A stretch of DNA of 64,000 nt from an uncultured Phascolarctobacterium sp. (GTDB lineage Bacteria > Bacillota > Negativicutes > Acidaminococcales > Acidaminococcaceae). The translations under genes and the position numbers were made by a program. Shown in pieces: positions 4,398 through 51,520 of the stretch. The number at the start of each line of letters is the position of its first letter. The stretch's first letter is position 1. The stretch spans positions 1 through 64,000 of the forward strand of contig CASEIL010000001.1 of NCBI GenBank assembly GCA_949288065.1. The letters are read 5' to 3'. The notes beneath the pieces were generated by a model, which made no database searches, had not been told where the DNA came from, and saw nothing but the letters and a program-made list of their open reading frames with translations.

Positions 4398-5768
4398 ATG
4401 TTTACTTTGCAGGAAGTTTTAGCGGCAACGGGCGGCAGCTGCGCTTGCACGCAAAACGCAGAATTTAGCGGCGTAAACACCGACAGCCGCAGCATTAAAG
4501 CGGGCGAGCTGTTTGTTGCCTTAAGCGGCGAAAATTTTGACGGGCATAATTACTGCGCTAAAGCGCTGGAACTGGGCGCGGCAGGCGTTGTTGTCAGCCA
4601 CGATGTTGAAGGTTTGCCGCAAAACGCAGTGGTAATTAAGGTTGGCGATACCTTAAGGGCTTACCAGCTGCTTGCCAAAGCTTGGCGCGATAAACAGAAA
4701 AATTTAAAGGTTGTAGCGGTTACCGGCTCCAACGGTAAAACTTCTACCAAGGATTTAATTGCCGCCTGCCTGAAAACGCAATATAATGTAGTAAAAACCG
4801 AAGCCAATTTTAACAACGAAATTGGTTTGCCTAAAACGCTGCTTAGCATTAAACCCGATACGGAAATTGCCGTGGTGGAAATGGGCATGCGCGGCCTGGG
4901 GCAGATACGCGCGCTGTGCGAGCTGGCAACACCGGACGTGGCCGTTGTAACCAATGTCGGCGAAACCCACATGGAGCTTTTGGGCAGCATGGAAAACATT
5001 GCTAAAGCCAAAAGCGAAATTGTGGAAGGCTTAACGGCGCAGCAGTTTGCCGTACTGAATAACGACGATGCTTTTGTGCGCCGGATGGCAGCTAAAACGG
5101 CGGCACAGGCTGTAACCTACGGCTGCGGTGAGGCAGACGTGCGCGCCGAAAATGTGCAGCTGAGCGCGGCGGGCAGCGAGTTTGACTGCGTTTGCGCCAA
5201 AACGGGCGAGTGTGCGCACATTGTGCTGCCGCTGTTAGGCGAGCATAACGTATATAACGCACTGGCTGCACTTGGCGTGGCGGTAACCTTTAACGTGCCG
5301 CTGGCGCAGGCTGCGGCAGCCTTAAAAAACGTGCAGCTTACCGGCAAACGGCAGGAGCTGGTGCAAATTGGAAGCGTAACCGTTATTAACGACGCGTATA
5401 ACGCAAGCCCCGCCTCAATGGCGAGTGCGCTGAAAACCTTGCAGGCAGTAAAAGCTGCCAAAGGCGGCAGGGCAGTTGCCGTGCTGGCCGATATGCTGGA
5501 GCTGGGCGAACTTTCGGCAGCGGCGCATACCGAGGTTGGCAAACAGGCTGCCGCTGCAGGCGTTGATGTGCTTATTACCTACGGCGAAGAAGCTGTAAAC
5601 ATCGGCAAAGCAGCGCAACAGGGCGGCGTTAAAACCTTTATTTGCCAAAACCGTGCGGAAGCTGCAAAAATTTTAAGCGGCGTAGTGCGTAATAATGATA
5701 TAATTTTGCTGAAGGGCTCTCATTCCATGCAGGTGGATGGTTTGATTGACCTTATTTTGAAAAAATAA
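4398..5768 (+). CDS. murF: UDP-N-acetylmuramoyl-tripeptide--D-alanyl-D-alanine ligase MurF
   Basis: 456 residues. Adds D-Ala-D-Ala to the UDP-MurNAc-tripeptide. The P-loop VTGSNGKTSTK lies near residue 111, NVGETHME follows in the central domain, and DAYNASPASM is the typical MurF C-terminal motif. The start is the ATG at 4398, four bases after the murE stop; the longer open frame from 4293 overlaps murE and is not used. Standard position in the dcw cluster. Confidence 0.97.
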   Translation: MFTLQEVLAATGGSCACTQNAEFSGVNTDSRSIKAGELFVALSGENFDGHNYCAKALELGAAGVVVSHDVEGLPQNAVVIKVGDTLRAYQLLAKAWRDKQKNLKVVAVTGSNGKTSTKDLIAACLKTQYNVVKTEANFNNEIGLPKTLLSIKPDTEIAVVEMGMRGLGQIRALCELATPDVAVVTNVGETHMELLGSMENIAKAKSEIVEGLTAQQFAVLNNDDAFVRRMAAKTAAQAVTYGCGEADVRAENVQLSAAGSEFDCVCAKTGECAHIVLPLLGEHNVYNALAALGVAVTFNVPLAQAAAALKNVQLTGKRQELVQIGSVTVINDAYNASPASMASALKTLQAVKAAKGGRAVAVLADMLELGELSAAAHTEVGKQAAAAGVDVLITYGEEAVNIGKAAQQGGVKTFICQNRAEAAKILSGVVRNNDIILLKGSHSMQVDGLIDLILKK

Positions 5769-18482: not shown

Positions 18483-19925
18483 TTGGTGATAAACTTGCCG
18501 GAACAACTGCAAAAAATAAATAAGTATACTAACATCATCCTGCCGGTGCTGCTCGTTATATTAGACTACATCGCTATAGTAAGTGCAGAACAGCTTGCCT
18601 TTAACTTCCGCAACTGGTATGTAGGCAACAATACCCTGCATATCTCCTGGCTCAACTTCTGGGTAGTATTCCCTGCGCTATACCTCATCTTTTTAAACAT
18701 CGAACAGCTATATAACCGCAGGGCACAGTTCTGGCAGATAATCCAAAAACTCTTTATTACAAGCTGCTACGCCGTTACGGCAATCATCATATTGTTTTAT
18801 ATAGCGCGTATAGCAGGCTCAACCAGCAGAATGTTCACCGCAGTCTTCTGGCTCTTAAGTTTTATTTTGCTGGTAATCTTCCGCTATATCGCCAAAAAAA
18901 TATTGGAGAAATACCAGCTTTTACAAATACCGGTGCTTATTATCGGCGCAGGCAAAACGGCAGAACTCTTAGTGCAGGGCATCAAAAATGACGCCGGCAT
19001 GGGCTATAAAATAATCGGCCTTTTAGAAGATAACAAAGTAGAACAAGGCATACTTGAAAACTACCCTGTACTAGGTAAATTCAGCGACGCTGAAAAAGTA
19101 ATAAGCAAATACAACATTCGTCATGTCTTTATAGCAGCACCGGGACTTGAACAGGAAAAACTGACCAAACTCATCTACAAAGTGCAGCCCTTAGTAAAAA
19201 GCATGGGCGTAATACCAAACCTCATCGGTGTGCCCATGGGCGGCATAGAAGCAGAAAGCCTGTTTAACGAAAAACTGATGCTGTTGCGCTTACGCAATAA
19301 CTTAGCGCGCCCTGTAAACCGCTGGATAAAAACAATTTTCGACTATGTTTTAACTATCATCGGCACAATCGCCATCAGCCCTATTTTACTTGTAATAGTC
19401 CTATGGATATATAAAGATTCACCCGGGCCGGTAATATTTAAACACCGTAGAATAGGCAAAAACGGCAACGAATTTAACTGCTATAAATTCCGCAGCATGT
19501 GCGTAGACGCCAAAGAAAAGCTGGAACAACTGTTAAAGAACGACCCTAAAGCAAGAGCCGAATGGGAAAAAGACTTTAAACTAAAAAACGACCCGCGCAT
19601 AACCAAAAGCGGGGCGTTCCTGCGTAAAACAAGTTTGGATGAACTGCCGCAGATATTCAACGTACTAAAAGGAGAAATGAGCCTTGTAGGCCCGCGCCCG
19701 ATAATAAGGGACGAAATGGCAAGGTATGGCGAATACATTAACGACTACCTGATGGTAAAGCCGGGTATCACCGGCATGTGGCAGGTAAGCGGTAGAAGCG
19801 ACACAGGCTATAAAGAAAGAGTACAGCTTGACAGCTGGTATGTACGTAACTGGAGCGTATGGTTAGACTTAATGCTGTTATGGAGGACGATGAAAATTGT
19901 TATTAAATGCAAAGGAGCATATTGA
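18483..19925 (+). CDS. Undecaprenyl-phosphate sugar phosphotransferase (WbaP-type)
   Basis: 480 residues. About five N-terminal transmembrane helices (residues 15-145), a Rossmann-like central domain ([15 protein letters not shown] near 150) and a C-terminal bacterial sugar transferase domain from about 276 with [32 protein letters not shown] and KPGITGMWQ. It starts the repeat unit by moving a sugar phosphate from a nucleotide sugar to undecaprenyl phosphate. The start is TTG 18483 or GTG 18486; neither has a clear Shine-Dalgarno. First gene of the polysaccharide locus. The substrate sugar cannot be told from sequence. Confidence 0.93.
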
Positions 19926-20688
19926 AAAAGAAGCAGAAAAACTATGCTCAATAATAATGCCAGCCTACAACAGCGAAAAATACATATCCCAAGCCGTAGA
20001 AAGTGTACTAAACCAAAGCTATAAAAACTGGAAACTGATAATAATCAACGACTGTTCAACAGATAATACCGAACAAATAATAAAAAGTTATCAGCAACAA
20101 TATGCAGCAAACAAAAAAATAAAACTAATAACCCTAGCACAGAATAAAGGTGTAGCAAATGCAAGAAATATAGGAATAAAAAATGCTAAAGGTAAATACA
20201 TAGCCTTTTTAGATGCCGACGACATCTGGCAAAAGGAAAAACTATATAAGCAAATACAACTGCTGAAAAGCACTAATACAGATATAACTTACACAGCCTA
20301 CCAGATGATAAACGAAACAGGACAAACAATAAAAGAACGCAGAGTAAAAGAAACACTGCATTTAAACGACCTGTTAAAAGAAAACAGCATTATCTTTTCA
20401 AGCGTAGCCTGCAAAAAAGAAAGCATAATAAACAAGCAATTTAAAAGTGAATGGTATCACGAAGACTATGTATTTTTGATTGATTTAGCTAAAGAAGGTA
20501 AACGCTTTAAAGGTATAAATGAAAGCCTGATGCAGTACAGAGTACATCAAAAAGGCAGGTCATTTAACAAACAAACAGCAGCAAAATACAGGTGGAAAAT
20601 ATACAGGGAATATTTAGGTATGAGCCTTTTACAAAGCCTGTATTATTTTGCTGTTTATGCATGGAGTGGGATTAGGAAGTATTTATAG
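19897..20688 (+). CDS. Family 2 glycosyltransferase
   Basis: 263 residues. GT-A fold glycosyltransferase: SIIMPAYNSEKYI at the N-terminus, NDCSTDNT, NKGVANARNIGI, and FLDADDIW, whose DAD is the DxD metal site. It probably adds the second or later sugar of the repeat unit. The frame overlaps the phosphotransferase gene. A TTG at 19897 lies 10 bases after GGAGG; an in-frame ATT at 19921, 4 bases after AAAGGAG, would give a more typical N-terminus. A hydrophobic segment near the C-terminus may be a membrane anchor. Confidence 0.9.
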   Translation: MLLNAKEHIEKEAEKLCSIIMPAYNSEKYISQAVESVLNQSYKNWKLIIINDCSTDNTEQIIKSYQQQYAANKKIKLITLAQNKGVANARNIGIKNAKGKYIAFLDADDIWQKEKLYKQIQLLKSTNTDITYTAYQMINETGQTIKERRVKETLHLNDLLKENSIIFSSVACKKESIINKQFKSEWYHEDYVFLIDLAKEGKRFKGINESLMQYRVHQKGRSFNKQTAAKYRWKIYREYLGMSLLQSLYYFAVYAWSGIRKYL

Positions 20689-20709: not shown

Positions 20710-21756
20710 ATGATAAATAAGAAACCAAAAGTATCAATAGTAATACCTGTATATAATGCAGAAAAATATTTAGAGCAATGTTTAAATAGCATAGTATCAC
20801 AAACATATCATAATATAGAAATAATTTGCATTGATGATGGTTCAAAAGATAATTCTTTGAAGATATTAAAGAATTATGCTGAAAATGATAATAGATTTAT
20901 TGTTTTAAACCAACAAAACCAGGGGGCTGCTGCTGCTCGCAACAAAGGCATAAAAATGGCGGCAGGAAAATATATTATATTTTTGGATAGTGACGATTAT
21001 TTTAGTATTGATTTAATAGATAAAACTTTAAACAAAGCTGAAAAGTTTAATGCTGACATAGTTATATTTAAAGCAGTATCTTTTAATAGTAAAACAGGAA
21101 AAACAAGAATTTTAAATGATGAAATTAATAAATTAAAATCATATTTCAACAAAACATTTTCAGTAACTGATATACCAGATAATATTTTTAATTCATTTTT
21201 GCTTGCTCCATGGAATAAATTTTATAGAACAGATTTTATAAAAGAGAATGGATTATATTTTCAAAATATAAAACGGTCTAATGATATTTATTTTACAACA
21301 ACTTCACTTGTAAAAGCTCAAAAGATAATTTTGCTTAATGATGTTTTAACTTATTACCGTAAAGGGACTAATACAAATTTACAAGCCGGAAATGAAAAAA
21401 CGCCATTAGAATTTTATAAAGCCTTAAATAAATTGAAAAACTATCTTGAAAGAGAAAACTTATACAAGTTAACAGAAAAAAGCTTTATAAAATTAGCCTT
21501 AGAAACTACTTTTTATAATATTAATTCTATAAAAAATAAAAAAGTAAAGTTTAATTTAATGCATTTTATGAACAATGAAGGTTTTAAAAATTTAGGCATT
21601 AATGATTATAAACACCTGTATATATTAGATTTATGTTTGTATTGCATGTTGCAAGTAGCAAAAAAATATAATTTGTTTCTTTTTAATAAATTATATTTTG
21701 CATTAAAAATTAAACAATATTTACCAAAAATTTTATTAAAAGTTTTTAAATTTTAA
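20710..21756 (+). CDS. Family 2 glycosyltransferase (capsule type)
   Basis: 348 residues. KVSIVIPVYNAEKYLEQCLNS, DDGSKDNS, NQGAAAARNKG and FLDSDDYF show a GT2 enzyme with DSD as the metal-binding motif. The C-terminal half has the extended helices common in CpsJ/EpsJ-like capsule transferases. The base composition is markedly more AT-rich than the upstream genes. Likely function: transfer of a sugar to the lipid-linked repeat unit; donor and acceptor unknown. Confidence 0.92.
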   Translation: MINKKPKVSIVIPVYNAEKYLEQCLNSIVSQTYHNIEIICIDDGSKDNSLKILKNYAENDNRFIVLNQQNQGAAAARNKGIKMAAGKYIIFLDSDDYFSIDLIDKTLNKAEKFNADIVIFKAVSFNSKTGKTRILNDEINKLKSYFNKTFSVTDIPDNIFNSFLLAPWNKFYRTDFIKENGLYFQNIKRSNDIYFTTTSLVKAQKIILLNDVLTYYRKGTNTNLQAGNEKTPLEFYKALNKLKNYLERENLYKLTEKSFIKLALETTFYNINSIKNKKVKFNLMHFMNNEGFKNLGINDYKHLYILDLCLYCMLQVAKKYNLFLFNKLYFALKIKQYLPKILLKVFKF

Positions 21757-21762
21757 ATTATT

Positions 21763-22662
21763 ATGGTGACAAATATGCGTTTATTTATAGGTAGAGTTGT
21801 TTCGTGGTTTGGCAAACATGAATTATTAAATTTTATTAATGACAAATTATATTTAAAAATTATTTATTATTTTTTTATGGGCCAAAAATTAAATTTATAT
21901 AAACCATTAACATTAAATGAAAAAATACAATGGTTAAAAATTTATGATAGAAAAAAGATATATCCTGAGTTAGTTGATAAATATATTGCAAAGAAACATA
22001 TTGAGAAATGGATTGGAGCGCAATATATTATACCGACCTTAGGTATTTGGAGTAATTTTGATGATATTGATTTTACAAGTTTGCCTAATAAGTTTGTCCT
22101 AAAATGTACACACGATTCAGGAAGTTGTGTTCTATGTAAAGATAAAAATAATTTTGATTACCAAAAAACTAGAACTTTACTTTCAAAAAAATTATCTCGT
22201 AATTATTTTTGGTTAGGTCGTGAATGGGCATATAAAAATATAAAACCACAAATAATTGCGGAACCTTATTTAGAAGATAATATTGGTAACGGTTTAACTG
22301 ATTATAAATTTTATTGTTTTAATGGAAGGGTTGATTGTGTTTTATTGTGTTTTGGACGCGAAACCGGAAATACACGATTTTATTTTTTTGATAGAGATTG
22401 GAAGTTAAAACGCTATAATAAACTTGGCAAAAATGCACCTAAAGATTTTACATTACCAAAGCCAGATAATATAAATGAAATGTTTGATATAGCTGGTATT
22501 TTAGCTGCCAAAAGTGAAGCACCCTTTGTAAGAGTTGATTTATATAATGTTAATGGGAAGATATATTTTGGTGAGTTAACATTATATCCAAATTGTGGAT
22601 TAGATAGAAATAGATTACCTGAAACAGATTTGTATTTCGGAGAATTGATTAAATTGCCTTAA
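21763..22662 (+). CDS. TupA-like ATP-grasp protein
   Basis: 299 residues. Matches the TupA-like ATP-grasp family: NEKIQWLKIYDR near the N-terminus, LPNKFVLKCTHDSG as the nucleotide-binding lysine region, LTDYKFYCFNGR, and FVRVDLYNVNGKIYFGELTLYP with the acidic metal ligands. TupA is named for teichuronopeptide synthesis in alkaliphilic Bacillus, where an amino acid polymer is joined to glucuronic acid; other homologues sit in polysaccharide loci. The likely reaction is ATP-dependent amide bond formation. ATG 21763 or 21775 is the start; no strong Shine-Dalgarno. Confidence 0.88.
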   Translation: MVTNMRLFIGRVVSWFGKHELLNFINDKLYLKIIYYFFMGQKLNLYKPLTLNEKIQWLKIYDRKKIYPELVDKYIAKKHIEKWIGAQYIIPTLGIWSNFDDIDFTSLPNKFVLKCTHDSGSCVLCKDKNNFDYQKTRTLLSKKLSRNYFWLGREWAYKNIKPQIIAEPYLEDNIGNGLTDYKFYCFNGRVDCVLLCFGRETGNTRFYFFDRDWKLKRYNKLGKNAPKDFTLPKPDNINEMFDIAGILAAKSEAPFVRVDLYNVNGKIYFGELTLYPNCGLDRNRLPETDLYFGELIKLP

Positions 22663-22721
22663 AAAATACGATGTAAATTTATGCTGTGTATGAATATTAT
22701 AAAAATAGGAGTGTGTATGTT

Positions 22722-25709
22722 GTGAAAGAATTTATAAAAAATTTATTAAGACGTATTTTTTCTAGATTTCCATGGCTCCGCCGTTTTGTGTCAAGACTGA
22801 ATGGCTTGGCTAATGGTAGAGGTAAAGGCGATACTATTTCTGGAATAAAAATCAAACCTGAAGAACGTAATTTGTTTACAAGCAAAGCATTATATTCAGG
22901 ATACAGTGTTGAATATCTTAATGCCAGAGCACTTACAAAAAAAGAACGTGCTTGTGAATTGAAAAAAATATTTTATAGTAAGGTCGGTTATTATTTGGAT
23001 TTAGATAATCCTAAAACATTTAATCAAAAAATACAATGGCTTAAATTAAATTATATGAATCCAGCTATGCCGCGTTGTGTCGATAAGGCAGAATTTAAAA
23101 ATTATATTGATGAGCAATTAGGTAAGGGTTATACTGTTCCAAATTATGGCGCATATGAAAATGAAAATGATATTGATTTTGATGCATTGCCGGATAAATT
23201 TGTATTGAAGTCAAATGTTCAAAGTGATGCAAGGCATATTTTATTAGTAACAGATAAGACAAAGCTGGATATTGATAAAGCTAAAACAGTAATGGCTACG
23301 TGGTTGTTAAAGAAAAACAATCTTTGTTGCTCTTATTGCAGTGCATATTGGAATGTTACACCTAAAATCGTTGTAGAAGAATTTTTGGATACTGGTTCCG
23401 GCGGTATTAACGATTATAAATTTTATTGTTATAACGGTAAATGCAGACATTTCCTTGTATGTAAAGACAGGCAAACTAAAACAAAATATATTAATTATGA
23501 TATGAATTTTAACTGTATAAAACCATCTCCTAATAGTTATTACCACGAAGGCCAATGTGAAGATATAGATAGTATTAAAGAAATGATAAGATTAGCAGAA
23601 AAATTAGCGGCACCTTTTCCGTTTGTTAGAGTTGATTTTTATGACGTTAATGGAAAAATATACGTTGGAGAATTAACTTTTTATCCTGGTGGTGGGTATA
23701 ATTCTTATTCTCGCGAATGGGATGAAAAGTTTGGCGAGTATTTAGTATTACCAGAGACTAAACAAGATTTTACTTTAGGGCAATTGGCAAGAATTATGGA
23801 AATAAAATTGCCAGTACAAGTGAATGACTCTTTAAAATATAAAAGAGTTCTTACACAATCACAATATTGTACACCTGAAGATGTTGTTGTAAGTGCAGGA
23901 TGGTATAATTCTAAGACAATTATAACTGAAGCGTTAAAAAAAGGTGCTGTAGCTATTTTTTGTAATCATGAAGATAAAAAAGAATTTTTACAAGAAAATG
24001 TTATTGCAGTCGATAATCCATTGCAATGTGTACAAAATTTTGAACGTTGGAAATTAAAATTTTTTAATACTAAATTAGTGACAATTACTGGTAGTGTGGG
24101 TAAAACTACAACAACAGGATTAATAAATACTATATTTAGTAATAATTTTAATACTTTAACTGGTCACAGTATGGCAAATAGCCATGGTGCTATTTTAAGA
24201 AATATACAAAAATTAAAAGCCGATTATGATTGGTGGGTACAAGAAGTAGGAGGCGTTCAGCCTGGTTATATTGAGAGTTCAGCGCAAATACTAAATTCAG
24301 ATATTGTAATTTTAACAAATATTGGGGAGTCTCATTTAAACACATATCTTACCAAAGAAAATATTTTTTATGACAAAAGTAGTTTAGAAAGATATGCAAA
24401 AAAAGGTGCTACAGTTATTGTAAGTTATGATGATGAGATACTTCGTAACGCTAAGTACACTCATAAATTAATTACATGCTCAATAAGTGACAATAATGCT
24501 GATTATTATGCAAAAGATATAAATGTGACTTATTATGGATTAGAGTTTACAGTTATTAGTAATATTACAAATAAATCTTTTGAAGTTAAGTTGAAACTGT
24601 TCGGTAAATATAATACTATGAATGCACTTTTTGCTATTGCTGCTGGAGATATTGCAGGTATACCAGTAGAAAATATTGTTAAAGCAATAGAATCTTATCA
24701 ACCTAGTGGTATGAGACAAAATTTTATTAATGTTGGTGGGTTTCATATTATGGTTGATGCGTTTAATGCAGAGCCTAAAACTGTTTTAGGTTCCGCAATT
24801 ACACTTACTGAAATGCCTAAACCGAAAGGGAAAAAAATTTTTATTACAGGTCATATTGATAAATTGGGTGCGGCATCTGCAGAATTGCATGAAAAATTAG
24901 GGCATAATTTAGCTAAACTTGATATTGATATAATTGTTTTATTTGCCGGGGATAGTAAATTTACCTATAAGGCATTATGCAATGAGGGGAATACTAATGC
25001 TTTGTTAATGAATAGTAGAGAAGAATTAGATAATTGGATGAGAGATAATATTTCTCATGATGATGTAGTTTTCTTTAAAAGTGGGCAATTTGAAGCAGCT
25101 TTAGCAAAATCGGTAGATAATGTATTTGGTACTACTTTTCAAAATGAACAGCAATTTAATGAAGGAGAAGTTGTTAATAAAGACGGATACAAAATAAGAA
25201 TAAGACGTGATAATATTGCTGAAATTGAGAGTTATATTGGCAGTGAGTTAGAATTGATTTTGCCAGATAATTATGAAGGAATACCCATATTACGTATTAG
25301 ACCATTTGCGTTTTCCAAAAATACAAAAATATCTTCTGTAGTAATACCAGATAGCGTAGTTAATATTGGACGAGAGGCTTTCTATGAATGTACTAATCTT
25401 AAAAATATAGTATTACCAAAGAATTTAAAGATTATAGAAAAAAATGCATTTAATTATAATAAAAATTTGACAAATATAGTAATACCTAAAGGAACTATTC
25501 ATATTGATAGACATGCTTTTTTTGATTGTCTTTCATTGGAAAAAGTTTATTTACCTCAAAGTGTTGGATTTATGGGAGAAGATGTTTTTGGATTTAGTAA
25601 AAATTTAAAACATGTTAATCTTCAAGCTATTATAGAAGATAATGATTATATACAAAAATATATGGAAAAGCATTTAATAAAATATGAAATTATAAAAAAT
25701 ATTGATTAA
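22722..25709 (+). CDS. Three-domain fusion: TupA-like ATP-grasp, MurF-like ligase, leucine-rich repeats
   Basis: 995 residues. Residues about 80-345 are a second TupA-like ATP-grasp domain (NQKIQWLKL, LPDKFVLKS, FVRVDFYDVNGKIYVGELTFYP). Residues about 345-800 are a Mur ligase most like MurF: P-loop TGSVGKTTTT near 456, NIGESHLN near 534, LFGKYNTMNALFA, and DAFNAEP near 678. Residues about 825-965 are BspA-type leucine-rich repeats (VIPDSVVNIGREAF and similar). No signal peptide or membrane helix, so it is cytosolic. Two separate ligase engines suggest two successive amide bonds, perhaps assembling and attaching an amino acid or peptide. Start GTG 22722, 10 bases after TAGGAG. AT-rich. I know of no described protein with this architecture. 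Confidence 0.88.
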   Translation: MKEFIKNLLRRIFSRFPWLRRFVSRLNGLANGRGKGDTISGIKIKPEERNLFTSKALYSGYSVEYLNARALTKKERACELKKIFYSKVGYYLDLDNPKTFNQKIQWLKLNYMNPAMPRCVDKAEFKNYIDEQLGKGYTVPNYGAYENENDIDFDALPDKFVLKSNVQSDARHILLVTDKTKLDIDKAKTVMATWLLKKNNLCCSYCSAYWNVTPKIVVEEFLDTGSGGINDYKFYCYNGKCRHFLVCKDRQTKTKYINYDMNFNCIKPSPNSYYHEGQCEDIDSIKEMIRLAEKLAAPFPFVRVDFYDVNGKIYVGELTFYPGGGYNSYSREWDEKFGEYLVLPETKQDFTLGQLARIMEIKLPVQVNDSLKYKRVLTQSQYCTPEDVVVSAGWYNSKTIITEALKKGAVAIFCNHEDKKEFLQENVIAVDNPLQCVQNFERWKLKFFNTKLVTITGSVGKTTTTGLINTIFSNNFNTLTGHSMANSHGAILRNIQKLKADYDWWVQEVGGVQPGYIESSAQILNSDIVILTNIGESHLNTYLTKENIFYDKSSLERYAKKGATVIVSYDDEILRNAKYTHKLITCSISDNNADYYAKDINVTYYGLEFTVISNITNKSFEVKLKLFGKYNTMNALFAIAAGDIAGIPVENIVKAIESYQPSGMRQNFINVGGFHIMVDAFNAEPKTVLGSAITLTEMPKPKGKKIFITGHIDKLGAASAELHEKLGHNLAKLDIDIIVLFAGDSKFTYKALCNEGNTNALLMNSREELDNWMRDNISHDDVVFFKSGQFEAALAKSVDNVFGTTFQNEQQFNEGEVVNKDGYKIRIRRDNIAEIESYIGSELELILPDNYEGIPILRIRPFAFSKNTKISSVVIPDSVVNIGREAFYECTNLKNIVLPKNLKIIEKNAFNYNKNLTNIVIPKGTIHIDRHAFFDCLSLEKVYLPQSVGFMGEDVFGFSKNLKHVNLQAIIEDNDYIQKYMEKHLIKYEIIKNID

Positions 25710-25738: not shown

Positions 25739-26713
25739 ATGAAAACAGTAGGATTTGTTATTAGCCATAAAAATAATGAACGTAGACGTGCTTTATTACC
25801 TGATGATTTAAATAATATCGAAAACAGACAAAAGCTATATTTTGAAAAAGGATATGGAGAATCGGTAGGATATTCTGATGAAGAATATTTAAAATATGGC
25901 GCAAATATTGCAACACGACAGGAAGTGTTAAATTGCGATGTTATTGTAGATGTGAAGCTTGGGGATGCAGATTACTTTGATGATGTAAAAGGGCCTAAAT
26001 TATTGGTCGGCTGGGCACATGCTGTGCAAAATTTAGAATTTACTACAGCTGTTCTGAATGGTGGACATTCTGTAATTGCATGGGAAGAAATATTTGAAAA
26101 TGGCAGGTATATTTTCTACCGCAATAGAGAGATTGCAGGAGAAGCTGCTGTGTTACAAGCTTTTAGATTTAGCGGGAAGTTACCTTATGACAGTAAAGTA
26201 GCAATTATTGGGAATGGCCAAACAGCAAAAGGGGCATTTAGAGTACTTGCTGGGTTGGGTGCTGAGGTTGATATATATGCAAGAAAAAATGAAGAACAAT
26301 TCAAGCAAAATATGTTTAATTATGATGTTTTGGTAAATTGTGTCATGTGGGATACTAATAGAAAGGATCGTTTAATTTATAAATCTGATTTGAAAAAGTT
26401 TAAAAAAGGAACTTTAATTATTGATGTAAGTTGTGATCCGCATTTGGAAATAGAAACATCTCATCCAACAACTATAGATAATCCTGTTTATGTTGTAGAT
26501 GATGTTATTCATTATGCTGTCGATAATACTCCGGCAATGTATCCTATAAGTGTAACGAAAAATTTAAGTAAGCAATTCAGTAAATATATTGACAATATTA
26601 TTAAAGAAGAATATACGGATTCATTAAAAGAAGCTCTTATTATAGATAAAGGGCATATTTTAGATGAAAATATAATAAAGTTTAGAACAAGTCGTGGAGT
26701 ATTTTGCAAATAA
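25739..26713 (+). CDS. ceo: N5-(carboxyethyl)ornithine synthase-like dehydrogenase
   Basis: 324 residues. It belongs to the alanine dehydrogenase / lysine-oxoglutarate reductase superfamily and looks most like N5-(L-1-carboxyethyl)-L-ornithine synthase, which condenses pyruvate with the side-chain amine of ornithine (or lysine) using NADPH. The N-terminus KTVGFVISHKNNERRRALLP, the H in GWAHAVQN and the Rossmann motif VAIIGNGQTAKGAFRVL support this. A TAGGAGG site precedes the ATG. Within a polysaccharide locus the product could be an N-(carboxyethyl) amino acid decoration; alanine dehydrogenase activity is an alternative. Confidence 0.75.
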   Translation: MKTVGFVISHKNNERRRALLPDDLNNIENRQKLYFEKGYGESVGYSDEEYLKYGANIATRQEVLNCDVIVDVKLGDADYFDDVKGPKLLVGWAHAVQNLEFTTAVLNGGHSVIAWEEIFENGRYIFYRNREIAGEAAVLQAFRFSGKLPYDSKVAIIGNGQTAKGAFRVLAGLGAEVDIYARKNEEQFKQNMFNYDVLVNCVMWDTNRKDRLIYKSDLKKFKKGTLIIDVSCDPHLEIETSHPTTIDNPVYVVDDVIHYAVDNTPAMYPISVTKNLSKQFSKYIDNIIKEEYTDSLKEALIIDKGHILDENIIKFRTSRGVFCK

Positions 26714-26740: not shown

Positions 26741-28057
26741 ATGAATTTAACCATAGTAGGTACAGGTTATGTTGGTTTGGTAACGGCTGTTTGTTTTGCT
26801 GAAAAAGGGCATAACGTAACTTGTGTTGATGTAGATGAAGAAAAAATTGAAAAATTAAAACATGGTGTGCCAACAATTTTTGAAGAAGGCTTGCCGGAGT
26901 TGATGAAGAAAAATTTCGGAAGGATAAATTATACGTCTGACGGCAAAAAGGCTTATACTGCAAGTAATTGTGTTTTTATTTGCGTTGGTACGCCTGAAAA
27001 ACAGGATGGCAGTGCTAATTTAAAATTTGTGTGGAATGTTGTAAAAGATTTAGCAGCAACAATTAAGAACAATTGTGTTGTAGTGGTTAAATCAACAGTT
27101 CCGGTTGGTACAAATGCAAAAATTAGCAAATATTTAGCTGAACATAAACAAATAGGTGCAGAATTTTACGTAGTTTCTAACCCGGAATTTTTATCTCAGG
27201 GTAGTGCTGTGCATGATACATTACATGCTTCACGTATAGTTATCGGTGCAGATGATGATTATGCTAAAAGGCAAATGGAAGCAGTGTATCAAAACTTTGA
27301 TGTTCCTAAAGTATTCGTGAATCCACAAAGTGCCGAGATGATAAAATATGCCTCCAATGATTTTTTGGCACTTAAGATTTCTTATATTAATGAAATTGCC
27401 AACTTATGTGAGCTTGTAGGCGCTGATATTAGTGATGTAGCAAAAGGAATGGGGTTTGATAAGCGTATTGGCGAAAAGTTTTTACAGGCGGGGGTAGGAT
27501 ACGGAGGGAGTTGTTTTCCGAAAGATACTAAAGCACTGCATTGGATGAGCGCATTTTATGATAAAGAATTAAAAACTATAAAAGCAGCAATAGAAGTTAA
27601 TGAACAACAGAAACTTTTATTAATAAAAAAAGCAAGAAAGTATTATGATAGCTTTGAAAACTTAAAAATAGCAGTTTTGGGTGTAACTTTTAAGCCGGGT
27701 ACTGATGATTTACGTGATGCTCCTTCTTTAGTAAGTATACCCATATTTTTAGATGATGGTGCAGAGGTAAATGTTTATGACCCGATTGGAGAAAATAATT
27801 TAAAGAAGATTTTAAAAAATAAAATTACTTATTGTAAAACGCCGCAAAAAGCACTTACAAATGCAGATTTATGCTTTATTTTTACAGAATGGGCGGAGAT
27901 AAAAAATTTAAAATATGCTGATTTTGCCTTAATGAAGCAAGTTATAATTTTTGACGGCAGAAACTGTTATGATTTGCATGATGTGAAAAAATATCCTGTT
28001 ATTTATGAATCTATTGGCAGAAAAACAATTAATAATTTAAGTGATGAAAATGTTTAA
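26741..28057 (+). CDS. ugd: UDP-glucose 6-dehydrogenase
   Basis: 438 residues. NAD-dependent oxidation of UDP-glucose (or a related UDP-hexose) to the uronic acid. The N-terminal IVGTGYVGLVTAVCFAEKGH is the Rossmann motif, STVPVGTN and SNPEFLSQGSAVHD follow, and GVGYGGSCFPKDTKAL carries the catalytic cysteine at about residue 260. FKPGTDDLRDAPS opens the C-terminal domain. It would provide the carboxylate-bearing sugar to which amino acids could be amide-linked. UDP-ManNAc dehydrogenase is a less likely alternative. Confidence 0.93.
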   Translation: MNLTIVGTGYVGLVTAVCFAEKGHNVTCVDVDEEKIEKLKHGVPTIFEEGLPELMKKNFGRINYTSDGKKAYTASNCVFICVGTPEKQDGSANLKFVWNVVKDLAATIKNNCVVVVKSTVPVGTNAKISKYLAEHKQIGAEFYVVSNPEFLSQGSAVHDTLHASRIVIGADDDYAKRQMEAVYQNFDVPKVFVNPQSAEMIKYASNDFLALKISYINEIANLCELVGADISDVAKGMGFDKRIGEKFLQAGVGYGGSCFPKDTKALHWMSAFYDKELKTIKAAIEVNEQQKLLLIKKARKYYDSFENLKIAVLGVTFKPGTDDLRDAPSLVSIPIFLDDGAEVNVYDPIGENNLKKILKNKITYCKTPQKALTNADLCFIFTEWAEIKNLKYADFALMKQVIIFDGRNCYDLHDVKKYPVIYESIGRKTINNLSDENV

Positions 28058-28817
28058 AAGGTATTTAAAATATAAGTTTCTTTTTGAAGAACTTGTAAAA
28101 AGGGATTATAAAAAACGCTATAAACGTACTATTCTTGGTATGGTATGGAGTATACTTTCTCCACTATTAATGCTTACTGTTATTGCAGTTATTTTTGGTA
28201 ACTTTTTTGGGCGCAGTATTGAGCATTATATTATTTATTTGTTCAGCGGGCAGGTAATTTACAGTTATTTTTTAGAAGCTACTAATGAAGGTATGCTGGC
28301 TTTAGTAAGCAATTCCTCAATTTTTAGTAAAATAAATGTGCCTAAATATTTATTCCTGTTTTCTAAAAATGTGTCGGCTTTAATTAATTTTGGTATAATT
28401 TTAGCTATTTATTTTTGTTTTGTAGCTTTTGAAGGAATAAGTTTTACATGGCAATTTTTGCTTTTGGTATATCCGGTAATCTGTCTTATTTTAATCAATG
28501 TCGGCATAGGGTTAATACTTTCGGCATTATTTATATTTTTTAAAGATATACAGTATTTGTACCGCTTGTTTACGCAAATTGTAGCTTATGGTTCGGCTAT
28601 CTTTTACAGTATTGATATTCTGCCACAACATTTACAGGCTTTGTTTTACTGCAACCCGATATTTGTATGTATAACGTACTTTAGAAGTATTGTATTACAT
28701 AATGCTGTCCCTGATTTACGTTTGCATCTGCTTTTGGCAGGCTATGCTTTGGTATTGTTTGGAATAGGCTGCTGGGTGTATAAAAAATATAACTATAAGT
28801 TTTTGTATTATGTGTAA
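28044..28817 (+). CDS. ABC-2 type polysaccharide export permease (Wzm/TagG-like)
   Basis: 257 residues with an N-terminal amphipathic stretch (ELVKRDYKKRYKRTILGMVWSILSP, shown in part) followed by six predicted transmembrane helices. This is the Wzm/TagG/KpsM layout; with the next gene it exports a lipid-linked polymer across the cytoplasmic membrane. It overlaps ugd by 14 bases. ATG at 28044 is taken, with GTG 28041 and ATG 28050 also possible. Confidence 0.93.
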   Translation: MKMFKRYLKYKFLFEELVKRDYKKRYKRTILGMVWSILSPLLMLTVIAVIFGNFFGRSIEHYIIYLFSGQVIYSYFLEATNEGMLALVSNSSIFSKINVPKYLFLFSKNVSALINFGIILAIYFCFVAFEGISFTWQFLLLVYPVICLILINVGIGLILSALFIFFKDIQYLYRLFTQIVAYGSAIFYSIDILPQHLQALFYCNPIFVCITYFRSIVLHNAVPDLRLHLLLAGYALVLFGIGCWVYKKYNYKFLYYV

Positions 28818-28826
28818 GGTAAGTTG

Positions 28827-29579
28827 ATGAAAGAAATATTAAAAGTAAATAATGTATCAATAAAATATATTACCGGCGACTTTAAAAGCATTGGTTTAAA
28901 AGAATATGTAATGCGACGGTTAAAGGGTAATTATACCGTTAAAGAATTCTGGGCAAACCGTAATATAACCTTTAGTTTAGAAGAAGGTGATATGCTGGGG
29001 ATAATCGGCACAAACGGCGCCGGTAAATCAACATTGCTTAAAGCTGTATCCGGTATAATGCGTCCATCTGAAGGAACGATAGTACGGCATGGAACAATAG
29101 CTGCATTATTGGAACTGGGCAGTGGGTTTGACGGTGACTTAACGGTAAAGGAAAATGCTTATTTACGTGGAGCGATGCTTGGTTATACACGTAAGTTTAT
29201 GGACGAAACCTACGAGCAGATTATAGATTTTGCAGAATTAAAAGAATTTGAGGACAGGCCTTTTAAACAGCTTTCCAGTGGGATGAAATCACGCCTGGCG
29301 TTTTCAATAGCGTCAATGGTACGCCCTGACATTTTAATACTTGATGAAGTATTGTCTGTTGGTGATGGTGCTTTCCGCAAAAAAAGCGAGGCTAAAATGA
29401 AAGAGATAATTAACGGTGGTGCAACGACTATACTGGTATCACATTCCTTAAATCAAGTGCGTAGTATGTGCAGCAAAATACTGTGGCTGCACAAGGGCAG
29501 GCAAATAACTTTCGGCAGTGATGTGCAAAAGATTTGTGACGATTACCAAAGCTTTTTGGATGGTAAGTTGAAAATATAA
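28827..29579 (+). CDS. Polysaccharide ABC exporter ATPase (Wzt/TagH-like)
   Basis: 250 residues. ABC ATPase with Walker A GTNGAGKST near residue 70, signature LSSGMKSRLAF, Walker B DILILDEVLSVGD and the H-loop VSHS. It is Wzt-like in the long N-terminal region before the first strand, but lacks the C-terminal carbohydrate-recognition domain found in O-antigen Wzt proteins, so it resembles TagH/KpsT-length exporters. Last gene of the locus. No Wzx flippase or Wzy polymerase is present, consistent with an ABC-dependent pathway. Confidence 0.94.
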   Translation: MKEILKVNNVSIKYITGDFKSIGLKEYVMRRLKGNYTVKEFWANRNITFSLEEGDMLGIIGTNGAGKSTLLKAVSGIMRPSEGTIVRHGTIAALLELGSGFDGDLTVKENAYLRGAMLGYTRKFMDETYEQIIDFAELKEFEDRPFKQLSSGMKSRLAFSIASMVRPDILILDEVLSVGDGAFRKKSEAKMKEIINGGATTILVSHSLNQVRSMCSKILWLHKGRQITFGSDVQKICDDYQSFLDGKLKI

Positions 29580-29933: not shown

Positions 29934-31166
29934 ATGTACATCACACGCGAGATTGAAGAAACGGTAAAGAGAATATCGGGGCAGTTTAAGGTGCTGCTGC
30001 TTACGGGGGCACGGCAGGTGGGAAAGACTACGCTGCTTAAGCATTTGGCGCAGGGCAGCGGGCGTACTTACGTTACGCTGGATGATTTAGCAGTGCGAAG
30101 TTTAGCACTTAGCGACCCGGCGCTGTTTTTGCAGCGCTACACGCCGCCGCTTTTAATTGACGAAATACAATACGCGCCTGCGCTTTTAAGCTACATTAAA
30201 ATATATGCCGATACGAAAGCACAAAACGGCGATATATGGCTGACGGGTTCGCAGCGTTTGCCGTTAATGCAGGGCGTAACGGAAAGTTTGGCAGGCAGGG
30301 TAGGCATTATTGACCTGCAAGGCTTAACTGCCGGTGAAATTAACGGAGCGGAATATACAGAGCCATTTTTGCCCACGGCAGAGCAGCTTTTGCGTCGCCT
30401 TAAAAATGCCAATAAGCAAAGTTTAAAGGAGATATACAAGCTCATCTGGCAGGGTAGCATGCCTGCGCTTTACAACGGTGGCGAGCATGACTGGCAAAGC
30501 TATTACGCCAGCTATGTGCAAACCTTTTTGCAGCGCGATGTTATGAAGCTATTACCAGTGAATGATGAAATGGTCTTCTTCCGCTTTTTATGCGCAGCAG
30601 CTGGGCAGACAGGCAAAATGATAAACTACGCCGAGCTTGCCAAAGCGGCAGAAGTAAGCGCGCCGACAGCCAAGCAATGGATTAAAACGCTGGAAGCTGC
30701 GGGTATAATTTACCTGTTACAGCCATTTATGCCGCCGGGGGCAAAATACATAGTAAAAGCACCGAAGCTGTACTTTTTTGATACCGGACTTGCAGCCTAT
30801 TTAACACGCTGGAACAATGCTGAGGCTTTAGAGATGGGCGCGATGAGCGCAGAATTTTTTGAAACATGGATAGTGGCAGAAATCTACAAAAGCTATGCCA
30901 ACAAAGGCATCGTACCGCCGCTGTACTACCTGCGCAACTTTAATGGCAAAGAGCTGGAGCTAATCATCTACGAAAATGGCACTGCCTACCCGGTAGCAAT
31001 TAAAAAAAGCGCACATCCGCAAAAAGCGGTAAAAACCTTTGCGATACTGGAGCCGGTAAGTGCAGACGCCAACATAAAAATTGGCGAGGGCGGCATAATT
31101 TGCTTTGCCGATGATTTACTGCCTGCGGCGCAGGATTTGTGGTATATTCCGGCGTGGTTGGTGTGA
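29934..31166 (+). CDS. AAA family ATPase with DUF4143 domain
   Basis: 410 residues. N-terminal ATPase with Walker A LLTGARQVGKTTLL near residue 20 and Walker B PPLLIDEIQYAP near residue 70, a helical region, then a DUF4143 domain (LYFFDTGLAAYL, FETWIVAEIYK, YYLRNFNGKELELII). Such stand-alone ATPases are widespread in gut anaerobes and archaea; the C-terminal domain has a nuclease-like fold, but the role is unknown. Single gene flanked by repeats and convergent genes. Confidence 0.9.
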   Translation: MYITREIEETVKRISGQFKVLLLTGARQVGKTTLLKHLAQGSGRTYVTLDDLAVRSLALSDPALFLQRYTPPLLIDEIQYAPALLSYIKIYADTKAQNGDIWLTGSQRLPLMQGVTESLAGRVGIIDLQGLTAGEINGAEYTEPFLPTAEQLLRRLKNANKQSLKEIYKLIWQGSMPALYNGGEHDWQSYYASYVQTFLQRDVMKLLPVNDEMVFFRFLCAAAGQTGKMINYAELAKAAEVSAPTAKQWIKTLEAAGIIYLLQPFMPPGAKYIVKAPKLYFFDTGLAAYLTRWNNAEALEMGAMSAEFFETWIVAEIYKSYANKGIVPPLYYLRNFNGKELELIIYENGTAYPVAIKKSAHPQKAVKTFAILEPVSADANIKIGEGGIICFADDLLPAAQDLWYIPAWLV

Positions 31167-46840: not shown

Positions 46841-46857
46841 GACAGGATGTGTTAATA

Positions 46858-48285
46858 GTGGATGCGCAAAAATATGTATGCCCTAATTGCGGCGGTCTTG
46901 TAGATTACGGCAGTAAATTTTGCCCGCATTGCCGTTATGAATTTGGCGAGTGGGAAAATCAAAACACAAATTTTCAATGTGAGGGCGACACTGTTTTAAA
47001 TACTTCTGCTAACGCAGAAATAGAAAATGAGCCAAAACCTAAAAATAATATTATTGTAATAGTTGCCGTTGTTTTAGCCGCAATAGCCGGTGTCGTTTAT
47101 TGGCTTACTAAAGACGATACCAAACAAATAGTAGCTGAAGCCATAAAAACAGGCAATATGGCGCCGGTATTTGAACTTTACCGCAAGGCAGCAGACGAAG
47201 ATAAACCTCAAACCGCCTATAAAATTGCAGACGCTGCCTTTGAAATAACTATTGATGAAGTTAATGGTAATGATAACAGGGCATTTTTGGAAACTTTGTA
47301 TAATGCCGTAAATAACGATAAAAATACTAATCTGAATATTGAAGCAGGCGGCAGGGATGAATATATGTCGCCATTTGTGGCATTGGTAAAATATGCTTAT
47401 GTGCAGTCTGAACTGGAAGATATGAAAATAACCACGGATAACGATATTCAAAATTATTTGCCTGCCGGTGTAAATATTGACGCTGCAAAATTAGACCCGC
47501 ATAATATCCGCAGCATTTATGCCTGGGTTGAACACCCGTTAGACGGCGGCTATGTTTTATATGGCACAAGAACCTTTTTCTACGAAACATTTCCAAACTA
47601 CCGCAACTGCCTTGGTTTGTTGTACTTGCCCAATGGTGGTGATGGCAGTACTTTGCCTGGTTATGCTTACAATGTTGATGTGTTGCAGTTTGGCACAACT
47701 ACATTAACATGGCAAAACGGCAGAATGCAGGACGTACCGGAACTGCTTGCGGTTGATGGTTATTTTAAAGACTTGTTGTGGAAAAGAAATTCATTGCAGG
47801 ATGTATATAAACCGCTTGACAGGGTAAAAAAAGATTTGCAAACAATGCACGATAATTTGCAGATTATTAAAAAGTATTACAAAACATCAACGCCGAACCT
47901 TAATTTTGACGGGCTTAACTTTAATTCTACTGAGGAAGAATTTTACGCCAAAGCTCCATTAAGCGGGCAAAAAGGCGAGGGAACAATTCACGTTAGCAAT
48001 ATTTTTGCCAACGGCGTTGTAGTTGATTTTATGCCGTATTTTAATTATCAGGTGCAGGATTCGGTAACAATATTAGACAACTACACCGGCAGCCTGAGCA
48101 ACGGCATTAAAATTGGCAATAGTTTGAGCGAAGTTACACAAAAAATGAAACCCTATTATCAGCTTAGCACTAATAATAATTGGGTAACATATCTTATGCC
48201 TAATGGGCAGACTTATAGCTTCAGGTTTAATAACGGCTATTTAGAACAGATAAATATCCGCGAAGCGCCGGGCTGGAAAAATTAA
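46858..48285 (+). CDS. Zinc-ribbon protein with one membrane helix and a large outer domain
   Basis: 475 residues. N-terminal zinc ribbon (CPNC, CPHC) matching the previous gene (QKYVCPNCGGLVDYGSKFCP), one transmembrane helix at about 62-82, and about 390 residues outside the membrane. The outer part is not recognised: an alpha-helical section (about 90-165), then a beta-rich section with many aromatic residues. GTG 46858 gives an N-terminus equal to the neighbouring protein; GTG 46849 is the alternative. Likely a cell-envelope sensor or structural protein. Confidence 0.75.
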   Translation: MDAQKYVCPNCGGLVDYGSKFCPHCRYEFGEWENQNTNFQCEGDTVLNTSANAEIENEPKPKNNIIVIVAVVLAAIAGVVYWLTKDDTKQIVAEAIKTGNMAPVFELYRKAADEDKPQTAYKIADAAFEITIDEVNGNDNRAFLETLYNAVNNDKNTNLNIEAGGRDEYMSPFVALVKYAYVQSELEDMKITTDNDIQNYLPAGVNIDAAKLDPHNIRSIYAWVEHPLDGGYVLYGTRTFFYETFPNYRNCLGLLYLPNGGDGSTLPGYAYNVDVLQFGTTTLTWQNGRMQDVPELLAVDGYFKDLLWKRNSLQDVYKPLDRVKKDLQTMHDNLQIIKKYYKTSTPNLNFDGLNFNSTEEEFYAKAPLSGQKGEGTIHVSNIFANGVVVDFMPYFNYQVQDSVTILDNYTGSLSNGIKIGNSLSEVTQKMKPYYQLSTNNNWVTYLMPNGQTYSFRFNNGYLEQINIREAPGWKN

Positions 48286-48298
48286 ATAACTTATTCCA

Positions 48299-48333
48299 AG
48301 CAGGCAGAATGAAAACGCTGCCTGCTGTTTTTT
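48299..48333 (+). terminator. Terminator
   Basis: AGCAGGCAG (48299-48307) pairs with CTGCCTGCT (48318-48326), followed by TTTTTT. Confidence 0.9.
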
Positions 48334-48442
48334 ATGCTGATAAACACTAAATACCAACTATATACCTAAATAAACAATCTATAAGTACAAAATAAAAAGT
48401 TAAAAATATGAGAAAATTTAATATAGGAGGGTGGTGATAGCC

Positions 48443-48673
48443 GTGTTTGCAATGCGCTATAAAATGATAGGCTTAAAAATTGCATATTACCGCAAGCTGC
48501 GCGGCTACACACAAGGGCAGCTGGCAGGCAAAATCGGAATTAGCACAACCTATCTGGGGCAAATTGAGCGCGGCAACAACGGTAAAAGCTATTCACTGGA
48601 AACTTTGCTCTTAATCGCCCAGGGGCTGGATGTTGATGTTAACCTTTTGATGAACGCTGGTGAAAATATATAA
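48443..48673 (+). CDS. XRE-family HTH regulator
   Basis: About 76 residues, a lambda-repressor-like helix-turn-helix (IAYYRKLRGYTQGQLAGKIG, STTYLGQIERGNNG). Very similar in layout to the 45584 gene. The start is uncertain: in-frame GTG codons at 48431, 48434 and 48443 and an ATG at 48452 follow AGGAGGG at 48425-48431. Probably regulates the AT-rich genes that follow. Confidence 0.85.
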   Translation: MFAMRYKMIGLKIAYYRKLRGYTQGQLAGKIGISTTYLGQIERGNNGKSYSLETLLLIAQGLDVDVNLLMNAGENI

Positions 48674-48804
48674 ATACTTAAATTAAATTTTAGGTATATG
48701 AAGGAAATTAAGTATAAATGCCGAAATAAAATGAATTATACGATTGGGAGAATATACATAGACAATAACTGTCCATGTGATTTTGTGTGGAGGAAATAAA
48801 AATA

Positions 48805-50472
48805 ATGAATACAATGAATTCTAAACAGAATTTTCAAGAAATTGATAATATAGAAGAGTTTGATTTTGATGCCTTAGAAGCACAACTTGAAGCAAAATTT
48901 GAAGAAGAGTTATCAGATTATAAAATTTTAGAAGAAGAAAAAGAGAAGATTGGTAATCCGGAGGCTCTTACTCAGGTTATTTCAGATGAAATTTGGAAAC
49001 AATTTGCTAATCAAATTGGTCTTGATATTACTAATGAAACTTTAATTCAGAAATATGATCGTGAGCATCCAGAAACATATGCAGAAGTTAAAGATAAAGT
49101 TATGCAAGATAAAAAATATAAAGAAGCTAATAAAAAAATGAAAGATAAGCAACAAGCGGGGGAGCTGACAGATGCTTATACAGGGAAAAATTTAGGTAAA
49201 AATGATAAAGCTAATTTAGATCATGTCGTATCACGAAAAGAAATTTATAATAACCCAAGAAGAAAACAGGCAAATTTAAGTACAGAAGAATTAGCTAATA
49301 AAGATGAAAATTTGCAACCTACAAATGAATCACTAAATAAAAGTAAAAAAGAAAAAAGTGTTGATAAATATATTGAGCAAAGAGAAGAAAGGGAACGCAG
49401 TTTAAAAGAACAGAATGAAAAAGCAAATAAAAAAATAGATGAATCAAATATGAGTTCTGCTGAGAAAAAAGCAGCTAAAGCTAAAAATAATAAGCATTTA
49501 CAAGACAAACTTGATGCTGATGATGAACTAATGAAGGAAGCTGATAAAAAAGCGCGTAATGCTATTAATAAAGATATTGCAATTGGTGTAACAAAACAAG
49601 TTAGTAAAAAAGCTTCTCTAGACGCTTTAAAACAAATGTCTATTGAGGCGTTGTTTACATTATTAAAAGAAATAATGAATGGTATGGTTCGCTTTTTTAA
49701 ATCTCAAGCCAAATCGTTCAACAGCTTTTTGGAAGAGATGAAAAAGGCAATTCGTAATTTCTTTAATAAAATAACAAGCTTTTTAAAAACTGGAGCAACA
49801 AGTTTTGTCGGAACTGTTGTTTCTGAAATTTTTGGACCAATTGTTAGTTTGTTTAAAAGACTTGCAAGTCTTATTAAGCAAGGTGTATCTACAATATGGG
49901 ATGCAATAAAATATTTAAGAGATGAAAAACATAAAAATGAACCTTTTAGTATCAAAGTAGCTCAGGTTGGAAAAATTATAGTTGGTGGACTTGTTGCAGG
50001 AGGAGCAATTTTGGGTGGGGAAATATTTGAAAAAGCTATTTCTACTATCCCAGGTATGCAAATAACAATTCCAGTGTTAGATTTGTCATTAGCAAATATC
50101 ATAGGATATTTTTTTGCAAGTTTATTAAGCGGCGTTGTTGGTGCAATTGTTTTGAATTTAATTGATAAATATATTGCTAAAAAACGTAAGTCAAATATAC
50201 TTAAAGAACAAATTAATAAAAATAATAAAATGTTAAAACAGCTAGAACAGTTAAATTTGGTTCAAAGAATGCACAATGAGCACGTTAAAAGAAATGTAGC
50301 AGAATCTATTGGTAATAGACATAAAGAAGCTGCAGTGATAATAGAAGATGTAGTTGAAAAAATAACTAATTATAAGATTGATGAGGTGGATTACAACAAA
50401 AAAGAAGTTAAGAGTGATAATGTGGAAGATATTGATGAAATGGATAAAATGTTAAAAAATTTAGGAATGTAA
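48805..50472 (+). CDS. HNH-like membrane protein of unknown function
   Basis: 555 residues. An acidic N-terminus (to about 60) precedes a section at about 115-180 with DAYTGKNL, LDHVVSRKEIY and NLQPTNESLNKSK, an arrangement like an HNH nuclease core without zinc cysteines. A charged coiled coil (180-245) and amphipathic helices follow, then two membrane helices at about 387-407 and 428-452 and a C-terminal coiled coil. No signal peptide. First of three AT-rich genes encoding a likely complex with the coiled-coil and AAA+ proteins downstream. Start ATG 48805 behind TGGAGGAAA. Confidence 0.7.
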   Translation: MNTMNSKQNFQEIDNIEEFDFDALEAQLEAKFEEELSDYKILEEEKEKIGNPEALTQVISDEIWKQFANQIGLDITNETLIQKYDREHPETYAEVKDKVMQDKKYKEANKKMKDKQQAGELTDAYTGKNLGKNDKANLDHVVSRKEIYNNPRRKQANLSTEELANKDENLQPTNESLNKSKKEKSVDKYIEQREERERSLKEQNEKANKKIDESNMSSAEKKAAKAKNNKHLQDKLDADDELMKEADKKARNAINKDIAIGVTKQVSKKASLDALKQMSIEALFTLLKEIMNGMVRFFKSQAKSFNSFLEEMKKAIRNFFNKITSFLKTGATSFVGTVVSEIFGPIVSLFKRLASLIKQGVSTIWDAIKYLRDEKHKNEPFSIKVAQVGKIIVGGLVAGGAILGGEIFEKAISTIPGMQITIPVLDLSLANIIGYFFASLLSGVVGAIVLNLIDKYIAKKRKSNILKEQINKNNKMLKQLEQLNLVQRMHNEHVKRNVAESIGNRHKEAAVIIEDVVEKITNYKIDEVDYNKKEVKSDNVEDIDEMDKMLKNLGM

Positions 50473-50496
50473 TATATTAGTTTGAGGTGAATGAAG

Positions 50497-51513: not shown

Positions 51514-51520
51514 TTAAGTT

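Follow-up and report, generated by a model that had tools for sequence, protein, structure and literature searches.

A polysaccharide locus with a fused double ligase

The window analysed here, i.e., the whole stretch of 64,000 nucleotides, carries on its plus strand a surface-sugar gene cluster that begins with a WbaP-type undecaprenyl-phosphate sugar-1-phosphate transferase (18483-19925, 43% GC; TIGR03022, 481 bits, above cut-off; Bac_transf, PF02397) and continues with two family 2 glycosyltransferases, the first of them TuaG-like (19897-20688; PF00535, E 6e-43; TuaG as best NCBIfam model, below cut-off) and the second matched by the same Pfam family (20710-21756; E 1e-42). Downstream follow a stand-alone TupA-type ATP-grasp amidoligase of 299 aa (21763-22662; PF14305, E 1e-63), a fusion gene for a TupA ATP-grasp, a MurF-like ligase and BspA-type leucine-rich repeats (LRR; 22722-25709), and an opine-type dehydrogenase of 324 aa related to N5-(carboxyethyl)ornithine synthase (CEOS), as judged from its AlaDh_PNT N and C domains and a tree (25739-26713). 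The cluster ends with a TuaD-like UDP-glucose 6-dehydrogenase as putative source of UDP-glucuronate (26741-28057; TIGR03026, 433 bits, above cut-off; TuaD the best model, below its cut-off) and an ABC exporter composed of a Wzm-like permease (28041-28817; PF01061; NCBIfam galactan permease, below cut-off) and a Wzt/TagH-like ATPase (28824-29579; PF00005; PRK13545/TagH best, below cut-off). The genes form a tight operon with gaps of 59, 29, and 27 bp and then an overlap, the dehydrogenase starting 29 bp after the fusion gene; promoter counts were close to chance. The GC content of the island is 22-43%, compared to about 50% in the surrounding stretch, and the cluster is horizontally acquired. 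As the genome also encodes LpxK, the bacterium is probably LPS-bearing. Straight after the operon lies an AAA_14/DUF4143 ATPase gene with normal GC content (29934-31166; 49%), and a second AT-rich stretch (46849-52630; 25-36% GC) encodes a zinc-ribbon protein, proteins of 561 and 340 aa without a Pfam match, and an AAA ATPase with AAA_lid_6.

The frame of the fusion gene is open over 995 aa from a GTG at 22722, preceded by ten bases by a ribosome-binding site (AGGAG, 22707-22711), to a stop at 25709. Residues 1-30 (22722-22811) form a cationic helix in the structure model (net charge +7) with an amphipathic moment equalled by 10% of shuffles, and the first 40 residues contain no hydrophobic run that could act as a secretion signal (maximum mean hydropathy 0.23); a contact of this helix with the membrane surface is tentatively possible. 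The TupA-type domain covers residues 103-341 (23028-23744; ATPgrasp_TupA, PF14305, E 6e-47, 160.5 bits against a gathering cut-off of 25). The MurF-like part as a whole spans about residues 350-805 and consists of a substrate-binding N-terminal domain delimited by alignment (residues 349-445, 23766-24056), a middle ATPase domain with the motifs GSVGKTTT, EVGG, NIGESHL, DKSSLE, and GKYN (residues 455-641, 24084-24644; Mur_ligase_M, PF08245, E 5e-30), and a C-terminal domain with VDAFNAEPKT for the NDAYNASP of MurF (residues 665-786, 24714-25079; Mur_ligase_C, PF02875, E 8e-6, 27.1 bits, just below the cut-off of 28.4). A conserved linker (NEQQFN..DGY..R.R.DNIAEIE; residues 806-858, 25137-25295; 47-64% identity to the type-1 relatives described below) leads to the BspA-type repeats (residues 859-971, 25296-25634; LRR_5, PF13306, E 1e-26, 93.5 bits against a gathering cut-off of 27.7).

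The three-part architecture proposed in a first-pass annotation of this DNA is thus borne out by Pfam, NCBIfam, and structure models, as are the placement of the middle region inside the Mur ligase family by domain search and fold match and the occurrence, in a polysaccharide locus, of a single cytosolic protein with two different amide-ligase domains; the repeat block, put at about 140 residues, proved to be shorter (about 100-113 residues). The best NCBIfam Mur family is clearly murF (TIGR01143, 213.5 bits), yet below its cut-off of 288.6, and relatives from Frisingicoccus (L007) and an Oscillospiraceae genome (L095) score much the same (213.7 and 217.7 bits). Structure prediction agrees with both ligase assignments. 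For the model of the Mur part, the top matches are crystal structures of MurF (Z 30.1, 430 residues aligned), with an rmsd of 9.9 that indicates a different domain orientation, and the TupA domain modelled alone resembles D-Ala-D-Ala ligases of the ATP-grasp type (Z 14.7, 210 residues aligned, rmsd 4.0), at fold level only, no solved structure close to it by sequence having been found. The mutual placement of the domains is uncertain because the pTM of the whole-protein model is 0.49.

Mur ligases carry on a conserved lysine a carbamate that serves catalysis, and the fusion protein retains this position together with the P-loop (GxxGKT[TS]), the glutamate, the histidine, GxxN, and NAxP of the superfamily, including the GSVGKTTT and DAFNAEP singled out by the first-pass annotation. 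The lysine that the latter reported in place of the MurF histidine came from a misaligned motif: GKYN corresponds to GEHN, so that tyrosine occupies the histidine position and lysine the R/E position, and the relatives with the same repeat domain have GKYN, GEYN, or GEHN. Alignment with the genome's own MurF and others further showed that the N-domain motifs TDSR and GExFDGH, which have a role in acyl-substrate recognition by MurF, have given way to LTQSQY and SAGWY, a change consistent with another acyl substrate for the Mur part.

MurF being, in both sequence and structure, the closest Mur family, a paralogue that modifies peptidoglycan precursors might be considered. This appears extremely unlikely in view of the loss of the MurF substrate motifs, of the position within an operon for an exported polysaccharide, whose UDP-glucuronate and opine genes such a role would leave unexplained, and of a true MurF gene in the cell-wall cluster: the genome's own MurF lies at 4524-5720 beside other Mur ligase matches, which makes the fusion a paralogue rather than the housekeeping enzyme.

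The fused TupA domain keeps the ATP-grasp lysine and the metal-binding motif (RVDFY..GELTF). After the ATP-binding strand it reads KSNVQSD, in place of the KxNH/KxTH of most other TupA domains. The same KSNVQSD occurs in the TupA protein of the Frisingicoccus contig, which points to a conserved subtype rather than a decaying domain, and a Chlorobiaceae protein (L012) departs from the common motif too (KLTN). Judging from these residues, the activity or specificity of the fused domain may differ.

A rare family of MurF-like ligases with repeats

The combination of a MurF-like ligase with LRR (MurF-LRR) recurs in a few Clostridia, while the TupA::MurF-LRR fusion was seen in the window only, the parts being separate elsewhere; the search for the same domain order thus succeeded for the two C-terminal parts and not for the three together. 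No further copy of the fusion turned up when 379 other genomes of its class and 397 others of its phylum were searched. MurF-LRR itself was present in 2 of 300 genomes sampled from the family of one Oscillospiraceae genome (L009) and in 1 of 348 sampled from the family of the Frisingicoccus contig, the query genome being counted in each, and we conclude that the family is rare and real. A literature search combining MurF, BspA, LRR, TupA, and ATP-grasp returned nothing, which is weak evidence of absence as most subscription papers were outside its scope.

At least two types of MurF-LRR can be distinguished. Relative to the window, type 1 has 57-70% identity in the LRR block and 52-61% in the middle Mur domain, and type 2 has 47% in the LRR block, 37% in the middle domain, and 22-25% in the N domain, which is the least conserved ligase domain within the family (22-44%). 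The core of the LRR block measures 99-100 residues in 7/7 sequences compared, whereas BspA-type surface adhesins vary in repeat number. This fixed length, with a conservation about equal to that of the catalytic core, indicates that the block is integral to the enzyme and not an adhesin; it would form a fixed part of the ligase and probably serve for the docking of a partner protein.

In the Frisingicoccus contig, TupA and MurF-LRR are separate neighbouring genes in the same order as the domains of the fusion, and the MurF-LRR half is 61% identical. Two Oscillospiraceae genomes have a type-1 gene about 20 bp after an aminotransferase gene (L008:3239-6448, L009:8654-11995) and also a type-2 gene that has an alanine dehydrogenase gene on one side and ATP-grasp genes on the other, with glycerophosphotransferase-like and LytR-CpsA-Psr genes nearby where the type-2 locus was scanned more fully. 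Some genomes have MurF-LRR without TupA and without sugar genes. The expectation of a small family therefore held, and its restriction to polysaccharide loci did not, given the Oscillospiraceae genes beside an aminotransferase gene or alone. An Oscillospiraceae operon (L095:5953-15803, L093:5402-14419) combines alanine dehydrogenase, type-2 MurF-LRR, and proteins of 650-721 aa with ATPgrasp_ST in the C-terminal half and, by eye, a diverged second copy in the N-terminal half.

An assembly chimera, named beforehand as a possible refutation, was ruled out by the independent genomes and the uniformly low GC content over the three parts (25-31%): MurF-LRR occurs in other assemblies, and its gene adjoins that of TupA in Frisingicoccus. 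We also rejected a viral origin, since no relative was found in viral contigs and the phage and plasmid matches were ordinary MurF-like proteins, none covering 80% of the query.

The separate genes in Frisingicoccus and the solitary MurF-LRR in Oscillospiraceae bear on whether both ligases act on the same glycan. The TupA domain might amidate a uronate while the MurF-like domain works on a substrate of its own, or the KSNVQSD domain, which has lost the histidine of KxNH/KxTH, might be an inactive binding module, in which case the fusion would merely join neighbours. We regard this as unlikely: the catalytic motifs of both ligases are kept, the altered TupA motif belongs to a conserved subtype, and genes that are adjacent in one organism and fused in another argue for a shared pathway.

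Other relatives of the TupA part differ in architecture. As many as 51 of the 60 loci found for the fusion protein (L016-L066) come from two Candidatus Gastranaerophilales genomes, which seemingly carry dozens of TupA-type ligase genes each. The Chlorobiaceae protein mentioned above (L012:9926-13534, 1202 aa) has an N-terminal TupA domain followed by a part that looks, by eye, like a glycosyltransferase, and a 460-aa frame (L010:9872-11254) contains one TupA domain plus part of a second copy.

The opine-type dehydrogenase and recurring gene pairs

In trees, the dehydrogenase encoded after the fusion gene groups with annotated CEOS and an enzyme from an E. coli glycan locus, apart from alanine dehydrogenases (support 100/99-100). 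It is 33% identical to annotated CEOS, an annotation that itself rests on homology; its product could also be alanine or a different amino acid. A search of 378 other genomes of the class at E 1e-25 gave no match to it.

An alternative is that plain alanine, or a dipeptide such as the D-Ala-D-Ala normally added by MurF, is attached to glucuronic acid and that the dehydrogenase is an alanine dehydrogenase. Its best NCBIfam match is indeed alanine dehydrogenase, below cut-off, the tree places the enzyme encoded next to MurF-LRR in the Oscillospiraceae operon among the alanine dehydrogenases, and uronic acids amidated with L-alanine are known (PMC10609480). The window enzyme is, however, short (324 aa against about 370 for alanine dehydrogenases) and has NTP where those have N[MIQ]P, which together with its well-supported position beside CEOS makes the alanine version quite improbable.

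Lachnospiraceae and E. coli repeatedly have TupA-type or other ATP-grasp ligases encoded beside uronate enzymes and dehydrogenases of the opine type, a suggestive association that comes from few, non-randomly chosen loci and carries no significance value. In Candidatus Pseudolachnospira avium (L014), a TupA gene, whose product is the closest relative found of the stand-alone TupA of the window (about 54% identical), is directly followed by a dehydrogenase 48-49% identical to that of the window; the polysaccharide locus also contains a UDP-glucose dehydrogenase-like enzyme and an epimerase, both named by reading translations and by similarity. On an E. coli plasmid (NZ_AP027746.1; L078:9022-18420), an O-antigen-like cluster between two IS91-family transposase genes encodes a weakly RimK-like ATP-grasp protein that precedes a CEOS-like dehydrogenase, plus a uronate dehydrogenase (UGDH) and an epimerase. 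Relatives of this pair occur on three E. coli chromosomes (71% DNA identity), one of them close to a fragment of TupA that lies among insertion sequences. The same ATP-grasp and CEOS-like dehydrogenase pair is present in a second record annotated as plasmid.

A candidate two-step decoration of glucuronic acid

Our preferred reading of the locus, with a probability of roughly 0.5, is a two-step amide ligase whose target is glucuronic acid in an exported polysaccharide, to which it would attach an opine-type amino acid or a short peptide. The protein would work in the cytosol, probably at the membrane surface, in a capsule- or O-antigen-like polysaccharide pathway for which the UDP-glucose dehydrogenase is predicted to make UDP-glucuronate. 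The CEOS-like dehydrogenase would supply an opine-type amino acid, in the simplest case an N-(1-carboxyethyl) amino acid from pyruvate and lysine or ornithine as presumed substrates. The stand-alone and the fused TupA would convert a carboxylate, likeliest the C6 of glucuronic acid, to an acyl phosphate and couple it with an amine, of which the opine-type amino acid is the likeliest first candidate. The fused MurF-like domain could then spend a second ATP on adding a further amine to the carboxylate exposed by the first step, if the order is as supposed, and the ABC transporter would export the product, glucuronic acid bearing an amino-acid or short peptide side chain. The assignment of steps is uncertain, as two TupA domains and one MurF-like domain are available for one side chain.

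Three precedents underlie this reading. The TupA-like domain of Cj1438 amidates the C6 of glucuronic acid (PMC11800379); N-epsilon-(1-carboxyethyl)lysine is amide-linked to galacturonic acid in Providencia rustigianii O14, and amino-acid amides of uronic acids, N-carboxyethyl-lysine included, are known from many O-antigens and capsules (PMC10609480); and cyanophycin synthetase has ATP-grasp and Mur-like domains that act in turn in one chain (PMC9262961). Our literature search, with most subscription papers outside its scope, found no paper on the genes behind synthesis and attachment of the opine type.

The first-pass annotation had suggested a processive or two-step ligase; the operon context and the TupA-like and cyanophycin synthetase precedents make two steps the best reading, and nothing among the domains speaks for processivity. 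Repeated cycles could in principle build a poly-amino-acid chain, as in teichuronopeptide, after whose synthesis TupA is named, or in cyanophycin, whose synthetase shares the ATP-grasp-then-Mur order and aligned to the fusion protein over some 830-840 columns in Foldseek. With 29.4 bits to the cyanophycin synthetase models (cut-off 850) and no sign of processivity in the sequence, we consider such a chain very unlikely.

The locus might represent a new bifunctional ligase type that places an opine-containing short peptide side chain on glucuronic acid, with an internal LRR fixed in a Mur-type family; we propose this fuller version only tentatively, and it may well not hold. The pair of a TupA or other ATP-grasp ligase and a CEOS-like dehydrogenase provides a directly testable gene set. 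In the MurF-LRR family, a cell-wall ligase fold has apparently moved to another polymer and gained a repeat domain, which few would expect on a cytosolic ligase.

Among known systems, Cj1438 of Campylobacter jejuni resembles the fusion protein in having a TupA-type domain (C-terminal, PF14305) in a multidomain protein encoded in a polysaccharide cluster with UDP-glucuronate, and carboxylate-amine ligation is expected for both. In Cj1438, however, the fusion partner is a glycosyltransferase, and serinol phosphate or ethanolamine phosphate serves as substrate (PMC11800379), whereas the TupA of the window is fused to a MurF-like ligase with LRR and has KSNVQSD for KxNH/KxTH. With MurF, the UDP-MurNAc-tripeptide:D-Ala-D-Ala ligase and its nearest Mur family, the fusion protein shares the fold, three-domain layout, and catalytic motifs of the Mur ligases, and it differs from MurF by a score below the family cut-off, the loss of TDSR and GExFDGH, EVGG for EMGM and NAEP for NASP, a C-terminal LRR, and a position outside the cell-wall gene cluster. 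As in the cyanophycin synthetase CphA1, an ATP-grasp precedes a Mur-like ligase in one chain, and two coupled amide bonds are proposed for the fusion too; CphA1 has a different ATP-grasp family and N-terminal part, lacks LRR, and makes a polymer of Asp-Arg. The downstream dehydrogenase groups with the CEOS of Lactococcus against alanine dehydrogenases and, unlike the genes of Lactococcus cremoris and Vagococcus, stands in a polysaccharide operon beside TupA. The repeats, finally, are of the type of BspA surface proteins (PF13306), but form a short, highly conserved block of fixed length on a cytosolic ligase without signal peptide.
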